Below the pieces are notes generated by a model. It ran no database searches. It was given only the letters and a program-made list of their open reading frames with translations, and was not told the DNA's origin. This document shows, piece after piece, positions 8,712-38,843 of a DNA stretch of 55,461 bases. Position numbers and translations under genes: made by a program. Location of the stretch: NCBI RefSeq assembly GCF_015062935.1, contig NZ_SUTM01000017.1, forward strand, positions 1 to 55,461, written 5' to 3'. This DNA comes from Methanobrevibacter sp. GTDB taxonomy: Archaea > Methanobacteriota > Methanobacteria > Methanobacteriales > Methanobacteriaceae. The stretch's first letter is position 1. Each line of letters starts with the position of its first letter.

Positions 8712-11669
8712 CTATTTAATTGTTATTTTAGGTTTTACGGTTTTAGCAGCATAGTAACTGTTACCTGCAAATTTAACAATAGCGGTGTATTTACCTTTTT
8801 TAGTTAATTTGGTAATTTTCAAGGTTGCTTGTCCTTTGCTGTTGGTTTTTGCAGAGAATGTTTTACCTTTAACTTTAATTGTAACTTTAGCGTTTTTAAT
8901 TACTTTACCTTTGTTGGTTTTTAAAGTTACAGTGTATTTTTTGGTTTTTACACTTGCTTTAAAGGTTTTAGCTTTAGCAGTTAATTTTGGAGCTGCTTTT
9001 TTAACTACAACAGTGACTTTTGAACTAGATTCTTTCAATTTGTCTTCACCTGCAAATTTAACGGTTGCAGTGTAGGTTTTAGGAGCTAAATTAGTTAATG
9101 CAATGCTTGCTTGACCTTTTGCATTGGTTACGTCTTTGTAGGTTTTACCGTTAATGACAAGGTATACTGTCTTATTAGCTAATACATTTTTATCAGCATC
9201 TTTTAATGTAATGACTACATTTTTAGCAACATTGTAAGTTTTTGTAACTTTAACTGCACTGATAGAAGTTGCATTTCTAATTACATTGATTTTTGCAGTT
9301 GCATTTGAACTTACGAAATAGCTTCTAGCATTATATGTGAAAGTTGCAGTGTTTTCACCATCTTTTGCAGTGACATCAAAGGATGCAATACCATTGGAAT
9401 CTGTTGTAGCAGTGTAATTTTTATCATTTAATGTTAAAAGAACTTCTTCATTGTATATTGCACTTCCGGAACCGTCTTTCAAGGTTACGGTAATAGTTCC
9501 TTTGGTATTGGTAAGGTTAATGTCTTCAGCAACAAGTTGGGTATTGATATTGGTACTGTAAAGTCCAACTATGTTTGCTGCACTTTGGAATTTGGAATCT
9601 GCAAATGCGATGAATTCCCTGAATGTTGGTGGGAATGGGTAGTACATTGAAGTTGCAGGGTATTTGTTGGTTCCAATGGTTACATTGTAGTATCCTCCAC
9701 CAAGCAGGAAGTGTAATCTTCCGGTACCTATGGTGTTGTTGAAGATAGCTTCATTTCCAGATCCGTATGCAGTAATAGCACTGATTTTATAATTGCTGAT
9801 TGTGTTTTCGTAAACACTGTGGCCTTTGGAGTGCATAAGATAGATTCCTTCTTTTGCACCGCTGACTGTGTTGTTGTAGATAACTACGTTAGGTCCGGTT
9901 CCGTGTCTCACATCGATACCATGGTTAAAAGCATTTGTGATTGTGTTGCTCATGATGGTAGTGTTAGCTGAACCGAAGTTCATGATACCTGTTGTGTATA
10001 CATCGTGGATGTTGTTGTTAGCTACAAGTCCGTTAGGTGAACTTCTTAAGAAAATACCCCAGGATGCGCCGGTAATATCCAAGTTTACAGCTGAGAATTT
10101 TTTGCTTTGTTCAATGTGTAATCCTACAGTTTTATATTCTTCAGTATTTGTTGTTGCTTTGGTGGTGTCATAACCAGGATACTGTGCAACAATATTTAAA
10201 TCGCTGATTACTGCTCCGGTTGTGTTTACAACATATACTACTGCATATTCTCCTATTGCATATCCGCCGTTAGCGGTTGCATTTCTAATTTTTACAGGTA
10301 TGTTTTCAGTGTTAAGGTTGTTGTATCCGATTAAGGTAGCGTTATTTCCGATAATTTTAATATTTTTATCAGTGTAAATGCAGATGTCATTAAATACTGC
10401 ATCTTTTTCAAAGGATAATGAGTCTCCATCAGCCATTGAATCGATTACGCTTTGGATTTCAGTTCCGCTCATTTCACTGGTGACATTGTATGTAGTTCCT
10501 GTTGGGTTGACGATTGCTGAGTAATCAGGGTTTACTTTAACAGGGGTTGCAATGTCTGCAGTTTTGGTGTATGAAACATCACTGGATGAACTGTCGGTGT
10601 AGGTTCCAATTACATTGTCTGCAGTTTGGTAAGCGCTATTTGCCTGAGCTACATAGTAAACGAATGTAGGTGGGAAAGGCAAATTGTCTAAACTGAAGGT
10701 ATTTTCTTCAATGTTGATGTCATAGTATCCTCCACCAAGTAAAATACCGATTCTGGATTTTTGTAAAATGTTATTGGAAAGAGTAATTTGACCTGATCCG
10801 TAACATGTGATAGAACTTGTAGTACAGTTAATAATGGTGTTTCCGCTTGCAGTGTGTCCTTTGGAGTGCATTAAGTATATACCTTCTTTGGAACCGATAA
10901 CTGTGTTGTTTAAAATTTGAACATTAGGTCCGGTTCCGTGTCTTGCATCGATACCGTGGTTTTTAGCATTGACAACTTTGTTGTTTGCAATAAGGGTTCT
11001 TGCAGATCCGAAGTTTATAATACCAATTGCTTCTTGGTTTTGAACGGTATTGTCTATAATAGTTCCGTCAGCACAGGAATTTAAGTAAATACCCCAGTAT
11101 CCTCCGGTAATTGTGGATTTTTCAATGGTTAAGTTTTTAGCCTGGGTTGCATAAACAGCTGCCTGTCCGTATGCAGGGTTCTGTCCGACAATGGTTAATC
11201 CGTTGATGACAACATTAGTATTGTTTATGAGATATAATGTTGCATAGTTTCCTATTCCGTATCCTCCGGCTTGTGTAGGAGTGATAACTTTATCAGGAGT
11301 AGTATTTTCGTTTGGATTTTCATATCCGATTAATGTTGCTCCGTTACCATTGATTGTAATGCTTTTGTCTACATATATACAAATGTCGTTATATGTTCCC
11401 TCTTCGAAGTTTAAAGTATCTCCATCGCTCATATTATTGATAGTATTTTGGATGGTTTGACTATCTGAATTAGCTTTAATGTCGTAGCTGGAAGATAACT
11501 TTGAATCTTCTGTACTTTGAATAATATCACTTACATCAGAGCTTTCCTGTAATCCTAATTCATCAGTTGTTGCAGCAATATCTGAAGCATCCTGTGCAAA
11601 TACTGCTGATGAACTTAAGATTATTGCGAAAACTAATAATGTAGTTATAAACAAACTCTTTTTGTTCAT
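8712..11669 (-). CDS. Secreted adhesin-like protein, duplicated beta-helix domain plus Ig-like repeats
   Basis: This 985-residue surface protein has a signal peptide at 1-25 (MNKKSLFITTLLVFAIILSS, cleavage after AVFA). Two homologous right-handed beta-helix blocks follow, at about 45-360 and 400-720. Each opens with a DGD(T/S)L-F-E, NDICIY-DK, NATLIGY pattern and contains GTGPNV and KEGIYLMHSKGH. The C-terminus has three Ig-like repeats with TNSKGQATLKITKL-type strands and is very Lys/Thr rich. There is no C-terminal membrane helix, so anchoring is probably by the basic repeats binding the cell wall (inference). The start at 11669 is chosen because it begins the signal peptide; an in-frame ATG at 11687 adds six residues. 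Such proteins are abundant in gut Methanobrevibacter. Confidence 0.85.
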   Translation of the reverse strand: MNKKSLFITTLLVFAIILSSSAVFAQDASDIAATTDELGLQESSDVSDIIQSTEDSKLSSSYDIKANSDSQTIQNTINNMSDGDTLNFEEGTYNDICIYVDKSITINGNGATLIGYENPNENTTPDKVITPTQAGGYGIGNYATLYLINNTNVVINGLTIVGQNPAYGQAAVYATQAKNLTIEKSTITGGYWGIYLNSCADGTIIDNTVQNQEAIGIINFGSARTLIANNKVVNAKNHGIDARHGTGPNVQILNNTVIGSKEGIYLMHSKGHTASGNTIINCTTSSITCYGSGQITLSNNILQKSRIGILLGGGYYDINIEENTFSLDNLPFPPTFVYYVAQANSAYQTADNVIGTYTDSSSSDVSYTKTADIATPVKVNPDYSAIVNPTGTTYNVTSEMSGTEIQSVIDSMADGDSLSFEKDAVFNDICIYTDKNIKIIGNNATLIGYNNLNTENIPVKIRNATANGGYAIGEYAVVYVVNTTGAVISDLNIVAQYPGYDTTKATTNTEEYKTVGLHIEQSKKFSAVNLDITGASWGIFLRSSPNGLVANNNIHDVYTTGIMNFGSANTTIMSNTITNAFNHGIDVRHGTGPNVVIYNNTVSGAKEGIYLMHSKGHSVYENTISNYKISAITAYGSGNEAIFNNTIGTGRLHFLLGGGYYNVTIGTNKYPATSMYYPFPPTFREFIAFADSKFQSAANIVGLYSTNINTQLVAEDINLTNTKGTITVTLKDGSGSAIYNEEVLLTLNDKNYTATTDSNGIASFDVTAKDGENTATFTYNARSYFVSSNATAKINVIRNATSISAVKVTKTYNVAKNVVITLKDADKNVLANKTVYLVINGKTYKDVTNAKGQASIALTNLAPKTYTATVKFAGEDKLKESSSKVTVVVKKAAPKLTAKAKTFKASVKTKKYTVTLKTNKGKVIKNAKVTIKVKGKTFSAKTNSKGQATLKITKLTKKGKYTAIVKFAGNSYYAAKTVKPKITIK

Positions 11670-11949
11670 ATAATCATCTTTCTCCATTTTTTACATAATT
11701 GCTTATAGTTTTTTCCAACGATAAGCAATTAATTATAGTTTGTATTTTTTATTATTTATATTAATTTTTTATAACAATGTTAAGCTATTCAAATTGAGTT
11801 AATAACACATGTTTAATCATATTAGTTAATTTAAAAAACTTTATATTGTTTAACTGTCAATATAATAATAATTAATCAATATTAAATAAAATATAATTCG
11901 TAAGTTTTATATTTTTATTTTTGATTAACAGTAAATTGAGGGTTTATAT

Positions 11950-13698
11950 ATGAATAAAAAGATAATTATTCTTTTATTTGTATGTTTTACATGTTTATTG
12001 CTAATTTCAACAGTTAATGCAACTGATAAGTCCAATAATAATTTAACTTCACAAAGTAATTCCTATCAGGTTACAAATGAATTGTCCAACGATGATATAC
12101 AGGTTATCTTTGACAATGCAAATGACGGGGATACAATTCAGTTTACTTCAAAAGAGTATAGAAATATATCTATTGTAGTGGATAAGAAGTTGAATGTTAT
12201 TTCCAGTGCTCACAGCAAGGTTTATGCTTCCGATAGCGTTACCAGCAAAGCTCAGGAATTAGGAATAGACAAAACTTTCGGTTTTTACTTCACACGCAAT
12301 AGTGTCGGAAGCGTCTTGTCAGGAATAACTATCACATCCAATTTCAATGATTATGGTGTTATTGTTGATTCATCAGACAATACGACAGTTAAAAATAATG
12401 TCATCACTGGTGGAAACAAAGCAGGAGTTCTTATTAAGGATTCAAAGTATGTGACTGTAAGTTTTAACTCAATTTCAAAATCAACAGGTGATGGGCTCCA
12501 GCTCAAGGATGTTGGATTCAGTACAATTAGAAACAATACAATATCTTATAATCAAAGGTCCGGAATCGAGACCTCAAATATAGATAACAACACTATTGTT
12601 TATAATGATATCCATCACAATGTGTTGAACGGAATAACTCTGCAAAATAAATCTTATGGGAATACAATTAAGCACAACAATGCTTATGAGAATCTTAATG
12701 GAATTTTCATCAATTCTACCTCAACATATGATGTAATCAATGCAAATTCATTTACAAGCAATCGTAAAAACCCTTCAATCAAAGAAACAGGGGGAGTTTA
12801 CGAGACAGGAAACGGACTCCTATTTGGTTCAGGATTCATAACCAAAAAGGAAAATACTCCGGGAAGACTTGAAGTCAAATACAATGTTTTGGCCCATAAT
12901 GAGATGTATCAGGCCAAAAACAATCCTGAATTGCCTGTATTCAAATTAGGTGACAACTGGTTTGATTCAACAGATGATTCAAATACCTTTGTATGCCCTA
13001 TGCTTCTTGCAGGTATTATGAAACTGGGAACCGTATCTGTTAAAAACGGTATTGGTCTTCAGATGTATGATACAAAAGGTGAAGCGGTAAAGGAATTCGG
13101 AACATTTGACACAAAAGTCAACATTGACGGAAATCAGTATTCTGCTAAATTTGTAAATGGTAAGGCTACTATTGATGCAAACTTGGATCCTGACAAGGAG
13201 TATGATATTGAAGTAATGGTTGGAGGGGAGCCTGTAAAATATAAGTATAAAGCAGCCTCCGGTGAAAAAGATGATAACCAGGACTCCACATCTTCAGATT
13301 CAACTGATGGTATTATGGGAGCAGACGGTTCCAGTTCACAGACTTCAACCGATTCAGTAACTGGTGGAACAGCAAAAGGAAATGGAAACCAACAGAATGG
13401 TACTTCCAATAGTGCACATTTCTCCAGCAACAAAAATTCTGGAGTTTATGGTACAAATGCCTCAGGGACACGTCAGGACTCATCAGATAATGGGCAGGAT
13501 GTTCAAACCGATGGGGATTTGAATGCTGGTGATGCCAGTGAAGGTGAAGTATCCCAGGAAGGTAAAGCATATGAAGTAGTTCCTCCAAGTAAAATCTCAA
13601 AAGAAGTTACAGATACATCAGGCCTTGTTGTATTGAGTATCGTTTCTTTGATGGGATGTTTAATATATGGATACAGACGAAAAAGTGATTTAGATTAA
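11950..13698 (+). CDS. Secreted beta-helix (NosD/PbH1-like) surface protein with C-terminal membrane anchor
   Basis: The protein has 582 residues. A signal peptide spans about 1-25 (IIILLFVCFTCLLLISTVNA). A beta-helix domain follows at about 40-290, with repeated N-N-I/V turns such as NTTVKNNVITGGNKAG and STIRNNTISYNQRSG. A smaller globular region is followed by a long low-complexity Ser/Thr/Gly/Asn/Asp linker (about 430-545). A single transmembrane helix near 553-572 (LVVLSIVSLMGCLIYGY) ends in positive RRKSD. The linker probably spans the pseudomurein wall. It is divergent from the other adhesin across 280 bp of AT-rich promoter sequence, and unlike it is membrane-anchored. Confidence 0.82.
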   Translation: MNKKIIILLFVCFTCLLLISTVNATDKSNNNLTSQSNSYQVTNELSNDDIQVIFDNANDGDTIQFTSKEYRNISIVVDKKLNVISSAHSKVYASDSVTSKAQELGIDKTFGFYFTRNSVGSVLSGITITSNFNDYGVIVDSSDNTTVKNNVITGGNKAGVLIKDSKYVTVSFNSISKSTGDGLQLKDVGFSTIRNNTISYNQRSGIETSNIDNNTIVYNDIHHNVLNGITLQNKSYGNTIKHNNAYENLNGIFINSTSTYDVINANSFTSNRKNPSIKETGGVYETGNGLLFGSGFITKKENTPGRLEVKYNVLAHNEMYQAKNNPELPVFKLGDNWFDSTDDSNTFVCPMLLAGIMKLGTVSVKNGIGLQMYDTKGEAVKEFGTFDTKVNIDGNQYSAKFVNGKATIDANLDPDKEYDIEVMVGGEPVKYKYKAASGEKDDNQDSTSSDSTDGIMGADGSSSQTSTDSVTGGTAKGNGNQQNGTSNSAHFSSNKNSGVYGTNASGTRQDSSDNGQDVQTDGDLNAGDASEGEVSQEGKAYEVVPPSKISKEVTDTSGLVVLSIVSLMGCLIYGYRRKSDLD

Positions 13699-33613: not shown

Positions 33614-35875
33614 TTGAAAACTAATTGTCCGAAATGTAAAGGTGTAGGTTCAGTTGTAGTGGACTACAAAGAATGTGATGCCTGTGGTGGAACCGGGTAT
33701 GAAGAAGACTTATTTGATGTAGGTAGTCATTTTAAAGGAGTAAATAGTAAAGCAAAAGCTAAATTTGATTTAGGTTCAGATCAGGATATTCCCTGCGAAG
33801 TATGTAATGGAAAAGGTCAGGTTGAAGTATTTGAAGACTGCCCTCACTGTCATGGAACTGGTCAGGTAAATGTATGTCGTGACTGTGGAAAATTAATAGG
33901 TGAAAATGAGGATGTCTGTTCTGAATGTATGGAAAAAAGAAAGGTAGAAAAAATGAAGCATGATGAGTATATTGCACGTCAAAATCAGGCAAGGGATGTT
34001 TATATTCTTGATTCCCTATGTCAAATGAGGGATTTAGACAAAGACAGATTATATAAAGGAAAAATCACAAGAGTTGAAAAATACGGTGCATTTGTTACAT
34101 TAAACAATAACGTTTGGGGACTTATGAGAGGAGATGTCTCTGAATATAAGGTTGGTGATGAAGTTATTGTATTTATTACTGCCATTAAGTCAAGGGAAGG
34201 CAAAATTGATTTCGCACCGGCTTATGTTGATAAGTATAACCTTAAAAGATTAACCAAATCCATTCCTAGAACTTTAATATCCAAACTTGAAGAGAAAAAA
34301 GGAAAGGTTGTCAGAATCAATGGTGAAGTTCAGCAGGTACAACAGACTTCAGGTCCGACAATATTCATAATCAATGATGAAAGCGGAACAACTGAAATTG
34401 CAGCATTTGACAAGGCCGGAGAAAGGTCATATCCTGAAATTGATGTGGGCGATGCGGTTCAGGTAATTGGTGAAGTTAATGAACACAGTGGAAAAACACA
34501 AATCGAGTCATCTTCAATGACAAAACTTGGTGAAGAAAATACGAGGAAGCTATTAAAATTAATTGACGATGCATTAAACAAGAAGGCTCAACCTGAAGAT
34601 GTCGATTTCTTGGTCAAAAGTGATGTTTTAAACAGACTAAAACCTAAGATGTATGAAGCTGCTCAAAAAATCAGAAGAGCAATACTTGACGGAAGAACAA
34701 TTCTTTTAAGACACCACAATGATGCCGACGGAATCTGTTCAGGAGTGGCAATGGAAAAAGCTATTGTTCCGTTAATTCAGAAGGCAAATCCAAGCAATGA
34801 TGCAGAATATTATTATTTCAAACGTTCTCCTAGTAAAGCACCATTCTATGAACTGGAAGATGTTGTTAAAGACTTGTCATTTGCATTGGAGGACCAGGAA
34901 AGACACGGTCAGAAATTGCCTTTGATTGTTCTTTTGGACAACGGTTCAACAGAAGAGGACATCGTTGCATTGATGCAGGCAAAAATATATGATATTGAAG
35001 TTGTTGTTATAGACCACCACTCCCCTGGAGATTTAATCACCAAAGACGAACGTGACGGTGAGATATATGGTGGAACTGTTGCAGTAGATGAATATGTGGA
35101 CTGTCATGTAAATCCTTACATTGTTGGTGGAGATTCCCAGCTGACAGCGGGCTGTCTTGCAACAGAAGTGGCACATATTATCAATCCTGATGTTAAAGAA
35201 CTGATTATGCATTTACCGGCTATTGCAGCATTGGGGGACCGTGCTGAATGCGGTGAAGTTTACCAATACCTGCAGCTTGCATCTAAGAAAGGATTCAGCA
35301 GGGAACATCTGGCAAAAGTTGCAGAATGTGTTGATTTTGAAGCATATTTCTTAAGATTCATGAATGGTAGGGGAATAATGGATACCATTCTAGCTGTTGA
35401 TAACCTTGATAAGCATGAAAAAATGATTGATGCATTATATAAGGAGTACCAAAAAAGAATCGATACCCAACTTAGGGCAGCTCTGCCGAATATCAAGAAA
35501 ACTCAACTTGAAAACGGCATTTACTTTAATTTGCTTGATGTTGAAAAATTCGCACATAAATTCACATTCCCCGCTCCTGGAAAAACATGCGGTTTTGTTC
35601 ACGATCATGTGATTAAAGAGTTGGGAGAAGACAAACCGATTGTAACATTAGGTCATGGTCCTGATTTTGGTGTATTCAGAGCCACTGATGCGGTAAACGA
35701 GCAATACGGTTTTAATGTTAATGAAATTGTATCCGCAATGATTGATAAAGTTCCTCAGGCAGGTATTGACGGCGGAGGCCATGAATGCGCAGGTTCAATC
35801 AAATATATTGAAGGGCTTGGCGAAGAAGTACTGTACAAGGTCGTTGAAGAAATTCAATCTCTGTCAAAAAAATAA
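33614..35875 (+). CDS. Archaeal RecJ-like DHH exonuclease with DnaJ-type zinc finger (COG1107)
   Basis: This 753-residue protein is of the archaeal RecJ/GAN group, single-strand exonucleases some of which join the replisome. Four CxxCxGxG repeats (residues 5-12, 21-28, 61-68, 76-83) form a DnaJ-like zinc finger, followed by a ribbon CRDC...CSEC (88-105). Then come an S1 domain (about 147-200), an OB fold (about 230-305), the DHH core with RHHNDADG (366-373), LDNGS (441-445), DHH (467-469) and GDR (541-543), and the DHHA1 signature DGGGHECAGS near the C-terminus. It starts with TTG after GAGGT. The catalytic residues are all present. Confidence 0.9.
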   Translation: MKTNCPKCKGVGSVVVDYKECDACGGTGYEEDLFDVGSHFKGVNSKAKAKFDLGSDQDIPCEVCNGKGQVEVFEDCPHCHGTGQVNVCRDCGKLIGENEDVCSECMEKRKVEKMKHDEYIARQNQARDVYILDSLCQMRDLDKDRLYKGKITRVEKYGAFVTLNNNVWGLMRGDVSEYKVGDEVIVFITAIKSREGKIDFAPAYVDKYNLKRLTKSIPRTLISKLEEKKGKVVRINGEVQQVQQTSGPTIFIINDESGTTEIAAFDKAGERSYPEIDVGDAVQVIGEVNEHSGKTQIESSSMTKLGEENTRKLLKLIDDALNKKAQPEDVDFLVKSDVLNRLKPKMYEAAQKIRRAILDGRTILLRHHNDADGICSGVAMEKAIVPLIQKANPSNDAEYYYFKRSPSKAPFYELEDVVKDLSFALEDQERHGQKLPLIVLLDNGSTEEDIVALMQAKIYDIEVVVIDHHSPGDLITKDERDGEIYGGTVAVDEYVDCHVNPYIVGGDSQLTAGCLATEVAHIINPDVKELIMHLPAIAALGDRAECGEVYQYLQLASKKGFSREHLAKVAECVDFEAYFLRFMNGRGIMDTILAVDNLDKHEKMIDALYKEYQKRIDTQLRAALPNIKKTQLENGIYFNLLDVEKFAHKFTFPAPGKTCGFVHDHVIKELGEDKPIVTLGHGPDFGVFRATDAVNEQYGFNVNEIVSAMIDKVPQAGIDGGGHECAGSIKYIEGLGEEVLYKVVEEIQSLSKK

Positions 35876-35885
35876 TTAGGTAAAA

Positions 35886-36773
35886 ATGGTTTTAGAAAAT
35901 TATTGTAAACATTGCGGTCATAGACTGCATCATGATGAGCCTTATTGTAAGGAATGTGGGCGAAAAACTCAATATTTGCCCACTAAGGACAACTATATTT
36001 TAGATATTCCAATATATGACATTGGATTTTTTGATTTTGACATTGATTTTTCTCCATACATAAACAGTTCAAAAGAGGATTTTAAATACGAGATATGCTC
36101 CTGCGGATATTTGAATGACGTAAATAATGAATACTGTTATATGTGTGGTGCAAAAAGGAATCACAGCAAATTTGAAAGAATTTTAAAAAACAGCTCAAAA
36201 CCTCAGTTTTCCATAGACAATGTTTTATGTGACTGCGGAGCCATAAATTCCCGTGAAAATATTTTCTGTGAAATGTGCGGTAAACAGCTGAAGGACAACG
36301 GGCCTGTTAAAGAGGATAATTACAGTAACTTTAATTTGGAGTTCACTGATTCTGTTTTCTGTTTTTGCGGAGAGGAAAACGACAAATTCTCTCAATTTTG
36401 CAGAAACTGCGGCCTTCCATTATTCAATTACGGCAAACAGGGTGATGTTCATATTTTATGCACATGCTCTACAATAAATGAAATAACCTCCGATTACTGT
36501 ATCGGATGCGGAAAGAATTTAAATATTGAAAGTTCGGTTATCCTTTGTATCTGCGGTGAAAAAAATCCCAAGGGCACTAAATTTTGCCATAGCTGTGAAA
36601 GACCATTAAATCCTCAAAAAACAATCAAAACCAGAATAATCTGTTCATGTGGGGAAGTATTGGATTGGGATGCCGATTATTGTCATAATTGTGGAAAAAA
36701 TATTAAAAGGACATTTATTCGTAAAAATACTGTAAATGATACAGTCAAATCTCTGAAAAATCTGTTAAGGTAG
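35886..36773 (+). CDS. Protein of seven tandem zinc ribbons, six with CxC-x10-CxxC spacing
   Basis: The 295-residue protein has a first ribbon of standard form, C7-x2-C10-x10-C21-x2-C24. Six more begin at C71, C115, C159, C192, C221 and C253, each with exactly C-x-C-x10-C-x2-C. Most read (I/L)C-x-CG and then YC-x-x-CG. The first knuckle is one residue shorter than in ordinary ribbons. An acidic aromatic linker (about 36-60, rich in D, F, Y and I) separates ribbons 1 and 2, and the last 25 residues are basic. There is no membrane segment. It begins ten bases after the RecJ-like stop and ends 7 bp before another zinc-ribbon gene. Function unknown. Confidence 0.72.
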   Translation: MVLENYCKHCGHRLHHDEPYCKECGRKTQYLPTKDNYILDIPIYDIGFFDFDIDFSPYINSSKEDFKYEICSCGYLNDVNNEYCYMCGAKRNHSKFERILKNSSKPQFSIDNVLCDCGAINSRENIFCEMCGKQLKDNGPVKEDNYSNFNLEFTDSVFCFCGEENDKFSQFCRNCGLPLFNYGKQGDVHILCTCSTINEITSDYCIGCGKNLNIESSVILCICGEKNPKGTKFCHSCERPLNPQKTIKTRIICSCGEVLDWDADYCHNCGKNIKRTFIRKNTVNDTVKSLKNLLR

Positions 36774-36780
36774 TGATTTT

Positions 36781-37758
36781 TTGAAAACTTGTGATATTTG
36801 CGGCACTTTAAATTTTAAGGAAAATAATTATTGCACCCATTGTGGAAACAAATTCATCACAGAAAATTTATGTCCTTACTGCGGTGCAGTTAATGAGGAT
36901 GTCGCAACACATTGCGTAAAATGCAACAAACAGATTAATCCGGTATATATTGATGATTTTGATACATTATTCAGTGATTATAATCATGATTTGCTTTTGA
37001 ATGCAGAAATAAGCGATGAGGAATATGAAGAGATTGTCTCAAAATTATTCATCAGAGCAGATTATCTGGAAATTTATGGGGATACCACTAAAAATAAGAT
37101 TCTTAATTTTGCAAGTGCATTTACTGAGTGCAAAACCAAGGCAAGAGGATACGAAAGAGGTTATATCTTTCTTGGAAACTGCATTTACTATGATGATCGT
37201 TTAAGCGATTCAGTGCAGATTGCTACATTAATTCATGAACTGGCTCACTATTTTTTATTCAGCATTGTTGAAAGTATTTTATGCCACATATTCAAGGTTA
37301 AACCGTCAGTAACTCTGCAAAGTTTCATCTGGTATTTTTTAACCCTTCCTGAATTTAAAATTATGAATGAATACTGTGCTCACACTGTTGAAGGCAGGTT
37401 TGTTCCATTCGGATATCAGAATTACGGTTCATATAATATTCTGATTAAGAATTTAGGTGTAGATAAGGAATCTTTGGATGGCATGGTTATTTTTGGAAAT
37501 ACTTTTGCAAATGAGATTATTCATTATCTGGAAAACTATATTGATGAAGAGTTGAGGGAAGAAATAAAACTTCAATATAAAAAGGATTTGACACCGCCAT
37601 CTTATGAATCAATATTGACGGAAACAAGTGATGAATTACCATTGTATATAAAAAATAAGACTTTATTGCAAGTATTATATGATATTTTTAAAGAAGCTTC
37701 AAAAGAAAGTGTAAGAATTGAATTGGAAGATATAAAAAAAGGGATTGAATTAAACTAA
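36781..37758 (+). CDS. Zinc-ribbon protein with HExxH metallopeptidase-like motif
   Basis: The 325-residue protein has two ribbons (C4/C7/C18/C21 and C31/C34/C45/C48). An alpha/beta domain follows, with an HELAH motif at 152-156 preceded by ATLI, as in gluzincin/SprT/ImmA-type peptidases. A candidate third ligand is the Glu or His in MNEYCAHTVEG near residue 195-205. The rest is helical, with an acidic C-terminus. It is TTG-started after AGTGAT. It continues the gene string from the RecJ-like nuclease (gaps of 10 and 7 bp). Whether it cleaves protein is inference from HExxH only. Confidence 0.65.
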   Translation: MKTCDICGTLNFKENNYCTHCGNKFITENLCPYCGAVNEDVATHCVKCNKQINPVYIDDFDTLFSDYNHDLLLNAEISDEEYEEIVSKLFIRADYLEIYGDTTKNKILNFASAFTECKTKARGYERGYIFLGNCIYYDDRLSDSVQIATLIHELAHYFLFSIVESILCHIFKVKPSVTLQSFIWYFLTLPEFKIMNEYCAHTVEGRFVPFGYQNYGSYNILIKNLGVDKESLDGMVIFGNTFANEIIHYLENYIDEELREEIKLQYKKDLTPPSYESILTETSDELPLYIKNKTLLQVLYDIFKEASKESVRIELEDIKKGIELN

Positions 37759-37762
37759 TCGT

Positions 37763-38056
37763 TTACTGTTTCTTTTTTTGCTCTTTTTTTTCTATGCTTT
37801 CCAATACTTCTTTTCCGGTATCAGTTAAACGGTATAGTCTTCCTTTACGAGCTTCTTCATTTATACATTCAACAATTTCTTTGCTTTTTAGTTCGCTTAG
37901 GACTTTTGAAATATGATTTGTTCTAATTCCACTGTCTTGAGCGATGTGAGTTGGTATTTTAACTTCGTCTCCAATTGATTTCAATGTTTTTTCTCTATAT
38001 TTGGAAATTTGAACATATGAAGTTAATTTCAAAAGCTCATCGTTTTCATTTGACAT
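37763..38056 (-). CDS. Winged-helix transcriptional regulator (MarR/ArsR-like)
   Basis: The 97-residue protein is a single winged-helix domain. It has TPxHIAQ-type helix 2 (IPTHIAQDSGIRTNHISKVL, about 36-55), then SELKSKEIVEC and the wing ARKGRLYRLTDTGKEVLESI (about 69-88). A basic KKEQKKKQ tail follows. No effector domain is present. It is convergent with the HExxH gene (4-bp gap) and divergent from the ribbon-membrane protein across 160 bp, so it may act on that promoter. Confidence 0.78.
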   Translation of the reverse strand: MSNENDELLKLTSYVQISKYREKTLKSIGDEVKIPTHIAQDSGIRTNHISKVLSELKSKEIVECINEEARKGRLYRLTDTGKEVLESIEKKEQKKKQ

Positions 38057-38216: not shown

Positions 38217-38843
38217 ATGAAATGTGAAAATTGTGGATTTGAAAATAAGGATACTGCCAAGTTTTGCACAAAATGCGGTGCATCATTTGTAGAACAACCT
38301 CCCGCACCCCCTGAAGGGCCAAAAGAGACTAATAATACAACTAAATACGTGATTGTAGCATTAGTCATTGTAATAATTATGCTTGTTGCGGGTCTTTCTT
38401 ATTTTGCGGGGTCAATGAATTCAAATGATGTTTCCAGTGATGCTGCCGTGCAGAATGACACTGCTTCTCAGGATGCTGGAAGTGATGACAGTCAGGAATC
38501 TCAAAGTACCTCAACTCAAACTACAAGTTCTTCAAGTTCCAAATCCAAATCTTGGGAAATTATAGGTACTTATTCGGGTTCAGGTTCCGGTTCTCAAACT
38601 GTTGAGGTTCCTTCAGGTCAGATAATGGTAAAATTGTCTGCATATCCAATTAAGAATTATGCAACCAATCATTTGTATGTATCAGGATCCAATGGTCAAT
38701 CCGGTGGCGTTGATTGGGGTTCACACAGTGATGTGGAAACAAGGTCTGATTCATTCAGTTACACATCATCATCTTCTGAGACATTTACCATAGATTATTA
38801 TGAAACCGTAAGCTGGGAAGTTGAATTCTATCGTTATCAATAG
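38217..38843 (+). CDS. Zinc-ribbon membrane protein with extracytoplasmic beta domain
   Basis: The 208-residue protein has an N-terminal ribbon C3-x2-C6-x10-C17-x2-C20 (MKCENCGFENKDTAKFCTKC) and a proline-rich linker. A membrane helix follows (about 43-66, YVIVALVIVIIMLVAGLSYF), then a Ser/Thr/Asp/Gln spacer (about 68-112) and a C-terminal beta-rich region. The ribbon is in the cytoplasm and the tail outside. ATG comes after GTGATAAT. A hairpin terminator follows. Such ribbon-membrane proteins are common in methanogens, but their function is unknown. Confidence 0.72.
   Translation: MKCENCGFENKDTAKFCTKCGASFVEQPPAPPEGPKETNNTTKYVIVALVIVIIMLVAGLSYFAGSMNSNDVSSDAAVQNDTASQDAGSDDSQESQSTSTQTTSSSSSKSKSWEIIGTYSGSGSGSQTVEVPSGQIMVKLSAYPIKNYATNHLYVSGSNGQSGGVDWGSHSDVETRSDSFSYTSSSSETFTIDYYETVSWEVEFYRYQ

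Follow-up and report, generated by a model that had tools for sequence, protein, structure and literature searches.

What a protein built of tandem zinc ribbons does in Methanobrevibacter, which of its neighbours it works with and how far its repeat departs from known ribbons are the questions raised by an ORF lying between a gene for a HAN-like (Hef-associated, RecJ-like) nuclease and a gene for an IrrE/M78-like zincin. The window considered here, i.e. the whole stretch of DNA that was analysed (55,461 nt), corresponds to contig C17 in a genome of 2.5 Mb. The ORF product, termed ZR below, and its neighbours are summarized in Table 1.

Table 1. Positions of ZR, its parts and the flanking genes in the window
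Feature	Position (nt)	Strand	Details
HAN-like (Hef-associated, RecJ-like) nuclease	33614..35875	+	upstream, ends 10 bp before ZR
ZR (seven-ribbon protein)	35886..36773	+	ATG start, 295 aa
ZR ribbon 1	35904..35957	+	CxxC-x10-CxxC, C7-x2-C10-x10-C21-x2-C24
ZR linker between ribbons 1 and 2	36009..36062	+	P-x4-GFF-x4-DFxPxI, without Cys
ZR ribbon 2	36096..36146	+	CxC-x10-CxxC
ZR ribbon 3	36228..36278	+	CxC-x10-CxxC
ZR ribbon 4	36360..36410	+	CxC-x10-CxxC; first ribbon of the confidently modelled block 4-7
ZR ribbon 5	36459..36509	+	CxC-x10-CxxC, first knuckle CxCS
ZR ribbon 6	36546..36596	+	CxC-x10-CxxC, end CxxCE
ZR ribbon 7	36642..36692	+	CxC-x10-CxxC
ZR C-terminal basic helix	36702..36767	+	helix 273-294 in model
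IrrE/M78-like zincin	36781..37758	+	325 aa, separated from ZR by 7 bp
Zincin ribbon 1	36790..36843	+	CxxC-x10-CxxC
Zincin ribbon 2	36871..36924	+	CxxC-x10-CxxC
Zincin HELxH active-site motif	37234..37248	+	H152, E153, H156 invariant in 41 sequences

Sequence and predicted structure of ZR

The first-pass annotation saw seven ribbons in this protein, six of them with CxC in place of CxxC in the first knuckle, and this is confirmed: all 28 cysteines lie inside ribbon motifs, and ribbons 2-7 read C-x-C-x10-C-x2-C, with first cysteines at C71, C115, C159, C192, C221 and C253. The spacer is x10 and the second knuckle CxxC throughout, as had been claimed, but CxCG and CxxCG are not kept by every ribbon: ribbon 5 has CxCS in its first knuckle and ribbon 6 closes with CxxCE (Table 1). 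The Pfam profiles DZR (2.1e-21, six stretches; 76.3 bits against a curated gathering score of 27.3) and Zn_Ribbon_1 (2.1e-13; 50 bits against 25) both match. The invariance of every ribbon cysteine across 23 aligned orthologues speaks for some form of metal binding, and each of the seven ribbons probably holds one Zn2+. Zinc-ribbon look-alikes in Haloferax include zinc-free proteins, and AlphaFold2 cannot settle such cases (PMC11241148).

Two parts of ZR lie outside the ribbons. The linker between ribbons 1 and 2 has eight invariant columns (P42, G47, F48, F49, D54, F55, P57 and I59), although the model has a pLDDT below 50 over residues 37-63. Near-invariant residues combined with low model confidence would be expected of a docking motif, so that the GFF-DFxPxI linker is a possible candidate for one. 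Ribbons 4-7 form a block that is modelled confidently, together with the C-terminal basic helix (net charge +5 over residues 275-295). Overall the protein is near-neutral (pI 6.4), a charge that would be atypical for nucleic-acid binding and does not favour it. A fold search with the whole model gave no match below E 0.02, and single ribbons gave local matches to the ribbons of RanBP2, NUP153, Mdm4 and ArnA, each with a weak E-value.

Relationship to known zinc ribbons

ZR shares a CG-x2-N-x6-CxxCG core and the x10 spacer with ribbons of the Zn_Ribbon_1 (PF13240), DZR (PF12773) and RanBP2 types. The spacer, with Asn as its fourth residue, and the second knuckle, CxxCG, make up the standard signature of these groups. 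ZR differs from them in the CxC first knuckle of six of its seven ribbons, and in that a single protein joins all seven by conserved linkers and ends in a helix. The usual Zn_Ribbon_1/DZR form, with CxxC in both knuckles, does not hold for those six ribbons, yet the profiles still match, and ZR may therefore be filed as a variant of this class. The consensus of the RanBP2-type zinc finger is W-x-C-x2-4-C-x3-N-x6-C-x2-C; most ZR ribbons have its Asn and x6, but the knuckle is x1 and there is no leading Trp.

The CxC pair itself has precedents. In PDB chain sequences, the zinc-binding domain of the RNA polymerase beta-prime subunit is a CxCG ... CxxCG ribbon with a CxC first knuckle; it differs from ZR in having an x12 spacer and in occurring as one copy within a large enzyme. 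CXC is among listed zinc-binding pairs (PMC7907104), and CxC plus CxxC make up the redox-switch zinc centre by which Hsp33 senses oxidants (PMC8282892). The latter is one site in a chaperone, and ZR, with a spacer of only 10, gave no match to the Hsp33 profile. The zinc site of Hsp33 has a long spacer and lies in the C-terminal domain. Single CxC-x10-CxxC ribbons were found in ResB-like cytochrome c biogenesis proteins of Bacillaceae; their N-terminal ribbon has the exact CxCGxxN-x6-CxxCG form (e.g. CECGHVNPEGTELCEACG) but is a lone ribbon opening a membrane protein, with no tandem array. In two other phyla, sampled at 300 and 299 genomes, the pattern was present in only 8 and 11 genomes, with one match each. 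The earlier statement that no protein with this repeat had been described thus needs dividing: the spacer, the second knuckle and the CxC pair were already known, and the new part is the tandem CxC x10 array, found only in Methanobrevibacter within the genomes sampled. A search of open-access papers yielded nothing on ZR.

Two further occurrences of CxC ribbons may be recorded. A protein from another archaeal phylum (L094, L096-L099) has one CxC-x10-CxxC ribbon at its C-terminus, and SPFH-like proteins of Clostridia (L075:3718-5145 and L078:4957-6216) carry tandem CxC ribbons with a shorter spacer (about x7).

Distribution and constancy of the array

A strict DNA-level search for the ribbon as CxCGxxN-x5-[FY]CxxCG matched 64 of 67 Methanobrevibacter genomes, the same 64 that carry a ZR orthologue, and none of 85 others of the phylum; the reversed control pattern gave no match. 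Public relatives are labelled Methanobrevibacter, loci labelled M. thaueri and M. millerae among them. ZR is carried by nearly every genome of this genus of gut methanogens. First-knuckle lengths are exactly 2,1,1,1,1,1,1, with the spacer always x10, in 71 of the 74 orthologues read, and an order kept so widely shows that the array is not a product of chance.

There are three exceptions. One genome (G021) has an eighth ribbon, likewise CxC; in two others (G080 and G094) ribbons 2 and 3 are CxxC, and ribbon 1 is absent from G094. Knuckle lengths are therefore exchangeable in at least two ribbons, and the specific metal geometry that had been read into the regular shortening becomes doubtful. 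In the HAN tree, the nearest companion of G080 and G094 is G090, with G021 and G113 joining at a greater distance; as this nests both in a clade with the CxC-bearing G021, the possibility that their CxxC ribbons are ancestral was rejected, and reversion from CxC is more parsimonious. The occurrence of CxC and CxxC at the same ribbon position in different genomes amounts to a natural experiment on knuckle length. An apparent fusion of ZR and zincin in G080 (a 615-aa frame) was discounted, as the reading frame crosses a stretch of N.

Whether the ribbons arose by expansion from one ancestral ribbon, as first suggested, was considered by comparing the 20 residues of each ribbon other than Cys. 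Between genomes, ribbons of equal rank in the array are 52-69% identical, compared with 9-32% for ribbons of different rank, indicating that the array predates diversification of the orthologues compared. Among themselves, the six CxC ribbons have a mean BLOSUM score of 16.8, whereas background ribbons of these archaea score 6.4-11.2 to the CxC ribbons and 11.9 mutually, the spread being about 8. The CxC ribbons are hence somewhat more alike, which is consistent with, though no proof of, their old expansion from one ribbon. Zincin ribbon 1 scores 19.8 and 21.1 against ZR ribbons 2 and 3 (background 6.9 and 10.3) and is not similar to most other ZR ribbons; that the ribbons of the zincin gave rise to the array is unproven, as the likeness is limited mostly to these two.

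Gene neighbourhood

The upstream gene product matches the HAN family NF053577 at E 7.8e-209 (695 bits, under the curated cutoff of 840) and does, as the first-pass annotation had stated, have its own zinc finger, which is DnaJ-like. HAN was found in 145 of 151 genomes, with every one of the 19 genera of the order represented, and ZR in one genus; outside Methanobrevibacter, HAN is followed by other genes. Of 44 public ZR loci, 43 have an ORF of HAN size immediately before ZR and 43 have the zincin immediately after it; at the locus where the zincin is missing, the contig ends. The gap between ZR and zincin is -1 to 12 bp at these loci, and the order HAN-ZR-zincin recurs at loci L001-L024 wherever the locus extends far enough. 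ZR and the zincin form a two-gene cassette and are probably co-transcribed. Both genes are missing from G090, a genome of the same genus, in which HAN is directly followed by the conserved wHTH gene that elsewhere comes after the pair. Two other genomes are uninformative about absence of the pair, the contig ending inside HAN in G113 and the sequence past HAN being about 200 bases long in G012.

Tail to tail with the zincin in the window is a gene for a slowly evolving wHTH protein (nt 37763-38056, minus strand), which is retained in G090. Beyond it (nt 38217-38843, plus strand) is a protein that combines one ribbon with a hydrophobic segment and a tail rich in Ser and Thr; in L118, L138 and L139, too, the wHTH gene is followed by a gene resembling it.

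The downstream zincin and its paralogues

The relation of the zincin to IrrE is marginal at the sequence level. Profile PF06114 (M78, IrrE N-terminal-like) matches 21 of 41 family members with E-values up to 0.01 (best 1.5e-5), and the window zincin reaches 20.0 bits against a cutoff of 22; a TPR-fused paralogue, at 22.3, is above it. Residue E197 (nt 37369-37371) is, like the active-site motif, invariant in 41 sequences, and we infer that it is a metal ligand. The best PDB fold match of the model (pLDDT 87.6) is to Deinococcus PprI/IrrE (prob 0.90, with a weak E-value of 0.057 and a low TM-score), and IrrE was not found when PDB sequences were searched by profile with the zincin. The gene pair resembles IrrE/PprI and other M78 peptidase systems in having a HExxH zincin next to ZR, but the partner would be a seven-ribbon protein as opposed to a DdrO-type repressor.

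The zincin family has many paralogues in Methanobacteriaceae, and in some the zincin is joined with TPR repeats or with the R subunit of a type I restriction enzyme. At 16 of 18 loci with stand-alone paralogues (L120-L137), a protein of a recurring type that bears 1-6 ribbons is encoded beside the zincin; these loci were chosen from the best-scoring paralogues and share descent, so that they show a pattern and are neither an unbiased count nor independent cases. The two without such a neighbour are L136 and L137. All three of the ribbon-bearing neighbours tested have a SAP domain.

Examples of such neighbours are L127:1118-3031 and L123:3929-5671, which have an N-terminal LTGG motif, a SAP domain and CxxC ribbons numbering five to six. 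The fused type is seen in L147:2226-5720 (minus strand) and L146:3-3098 (plus strand), where a type I restriction R subunit ends in a ribbon and an M78-like zincin domain; HSDR_N and SWI2/SNF2 are present in the R subunit of L147, and the gene beside each R subunit encodes an HsdS-type specificity domain.

Covariation of evolutionary rates

Relative branch rates of only five genes were compared over 35 genomes on a fixed tree, the guide tree being built partly from ZR and the zincin themselves. ZR and zincin are the most strongly covarying pair (r = 0.81, p = 4e-12), other pairs reaching up to 0.54. Spearman correlation, run with the branch filter slightly altered, gives 0.77 over the full set of branches and 0.71-0.76 when four subsets are taken; ZR-zincin always ranks first and the next best pair never exceeds 0.54. 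Covariation of ZR with HAN (0.54) equals that with RPP30 (0.53), a nearby control gene that evolves, overall, roughly as fast as ZR. These values single out the zincin as the suggested partner and place HAN at control level. As HAN occurs in 19 genera and ZR in one, and their covariation is that of a control, the functional tie to the RecJ-like nuclease proposed at first is not upheld: the link is positional only, and HAN stands outside the ZR unit. The zincin, which the first-pass annotation did not mention, is the better-supported partner.

Possible functions of ZR

The reading favoured here, to which we would give about an even chance, is that ZR is a zinc-loaded scaffold or regulator of the downstream zincin. 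The conserved gene order, the joint absence from one genome and the strong rate covariation point to the zincin as partner, and the ribbon-bearing neighbours at 16 of the 18 paralogue loci fit this; the near-neutral array, the confident ribbon 4-7 block and the near-invariant, low-confidence linker point to a scaffold or regulator. Each ribbon would hold one Zn2+ in a Cys4 site and at least ribbons 4-7 would pack as one block; the array would bind the zincin through the conserved linker or the ribbons, and could then either bring substrate to the zincin or hold it in check. Several observations weigh against a partnership. Neighbouring accessory genes can covary through shared relaxed selection or joint transfer; the ribbon-bearing partner is missing at two of the 18 paralogue loci, and the TPR- and R-subunit-fused zincins show no obvious partner. 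The partners of the paralogues are homologous to ZR only as generic ribbons, and the modelled fold match to IrrE is, as described above, weak. ZR, one of the numerous archaeal zinc-ribbon proteins, most of which have no known function, thus has a candidate partner, with a possible tie to the zinc-controlled M78-type proteases described in bacteria (PMC7907104).

ZR might instead be a zinc donor or redox switch, its Cys4 sites releasing Zn2+ (up to seven ions) when oxidised and so loading and activating the adjacent zincin, an explanation that we regard as unlikely. The sites, six of them with CxC knuckles, would then be labile to oxygen or electrophiles, in a cis version of the zinc signalling proposed for Deinococcus IrrE. 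The organisms that carry ZR are anaerobes and are strongly stressed by oxygen, as would suit such a switch. IrrE is activated by zinc, with oxidised Zn/Cys sites as the proposed source (PMC7907104), the oxidant-sensing Hsp33 centre has the same pairs of cysteines (PMC8282892), and the zincin, itself IrrE/M78-like, covaries with ZR. CxC spacing alone is not lability, however (compare the CxC-x12-CxxC ribbon of RNA polymerase beta-prime); the presence of a conserved linker and a helix suggests a role beyond storing metal, and partners of the paralogous zincins have CxxC ribbons. The fullest form of the idea, an encoded redox-labile reservoir that switches on an IrrE-like metalloprotease, with zinc as a second messenger of oxidative stress in archaea, is by analogy conceivable but very unlikely; were it true, zinc donor and acceptor would be encoded in one methanogen operon.

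There is also a small chance that ZR is the substrate of the zincin, being cleaved by it and, when intact, acting elsewhere. ImmA and other M78 proteases have as their target the product of a neighbouring gene, which agrees with this, and the covariation fits any intimate pair. The ribbon proteins beside the zincin paralogues, some with SAP domains, could be DNA-bound substrates. IrrE is a precedent, as it cleaves the repressor DdrO (PMC7907104). Profile searches, however, gave ZR no recognisable DNA-binding repressor domain, and it has no known cleavage site.

That ZR is an accessory of HAN in DNA repair, binding nucleic acid or the nuclease through its ribbons, is quite improbable. In its favour, fingers of the RanBP2 type are able to bind RNA, HAN carries a zinc finger itself, and the position of ZR about 10 bp downstream of HAN is conserved; HAN is moreover abundant and may have further partners (PMC5717133). 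Against this, 18 other genera have HAN without ZR, G090 keeps HAN without the ZR-zincin pair, and the control-level covariation and the near-neutral charge also count against it. A viral origin and a role as a defence system were rejected, as viral contigs yielded no relative of ZR or the zincin and PADLOC matched neither.

Elsewhere in the window, two ORFs (nt 8712-11687, minus strand, and nt 11950-13698, plus strand) give the impression, from their sequences, of large, repeat-rich, adhesin-like proteins.
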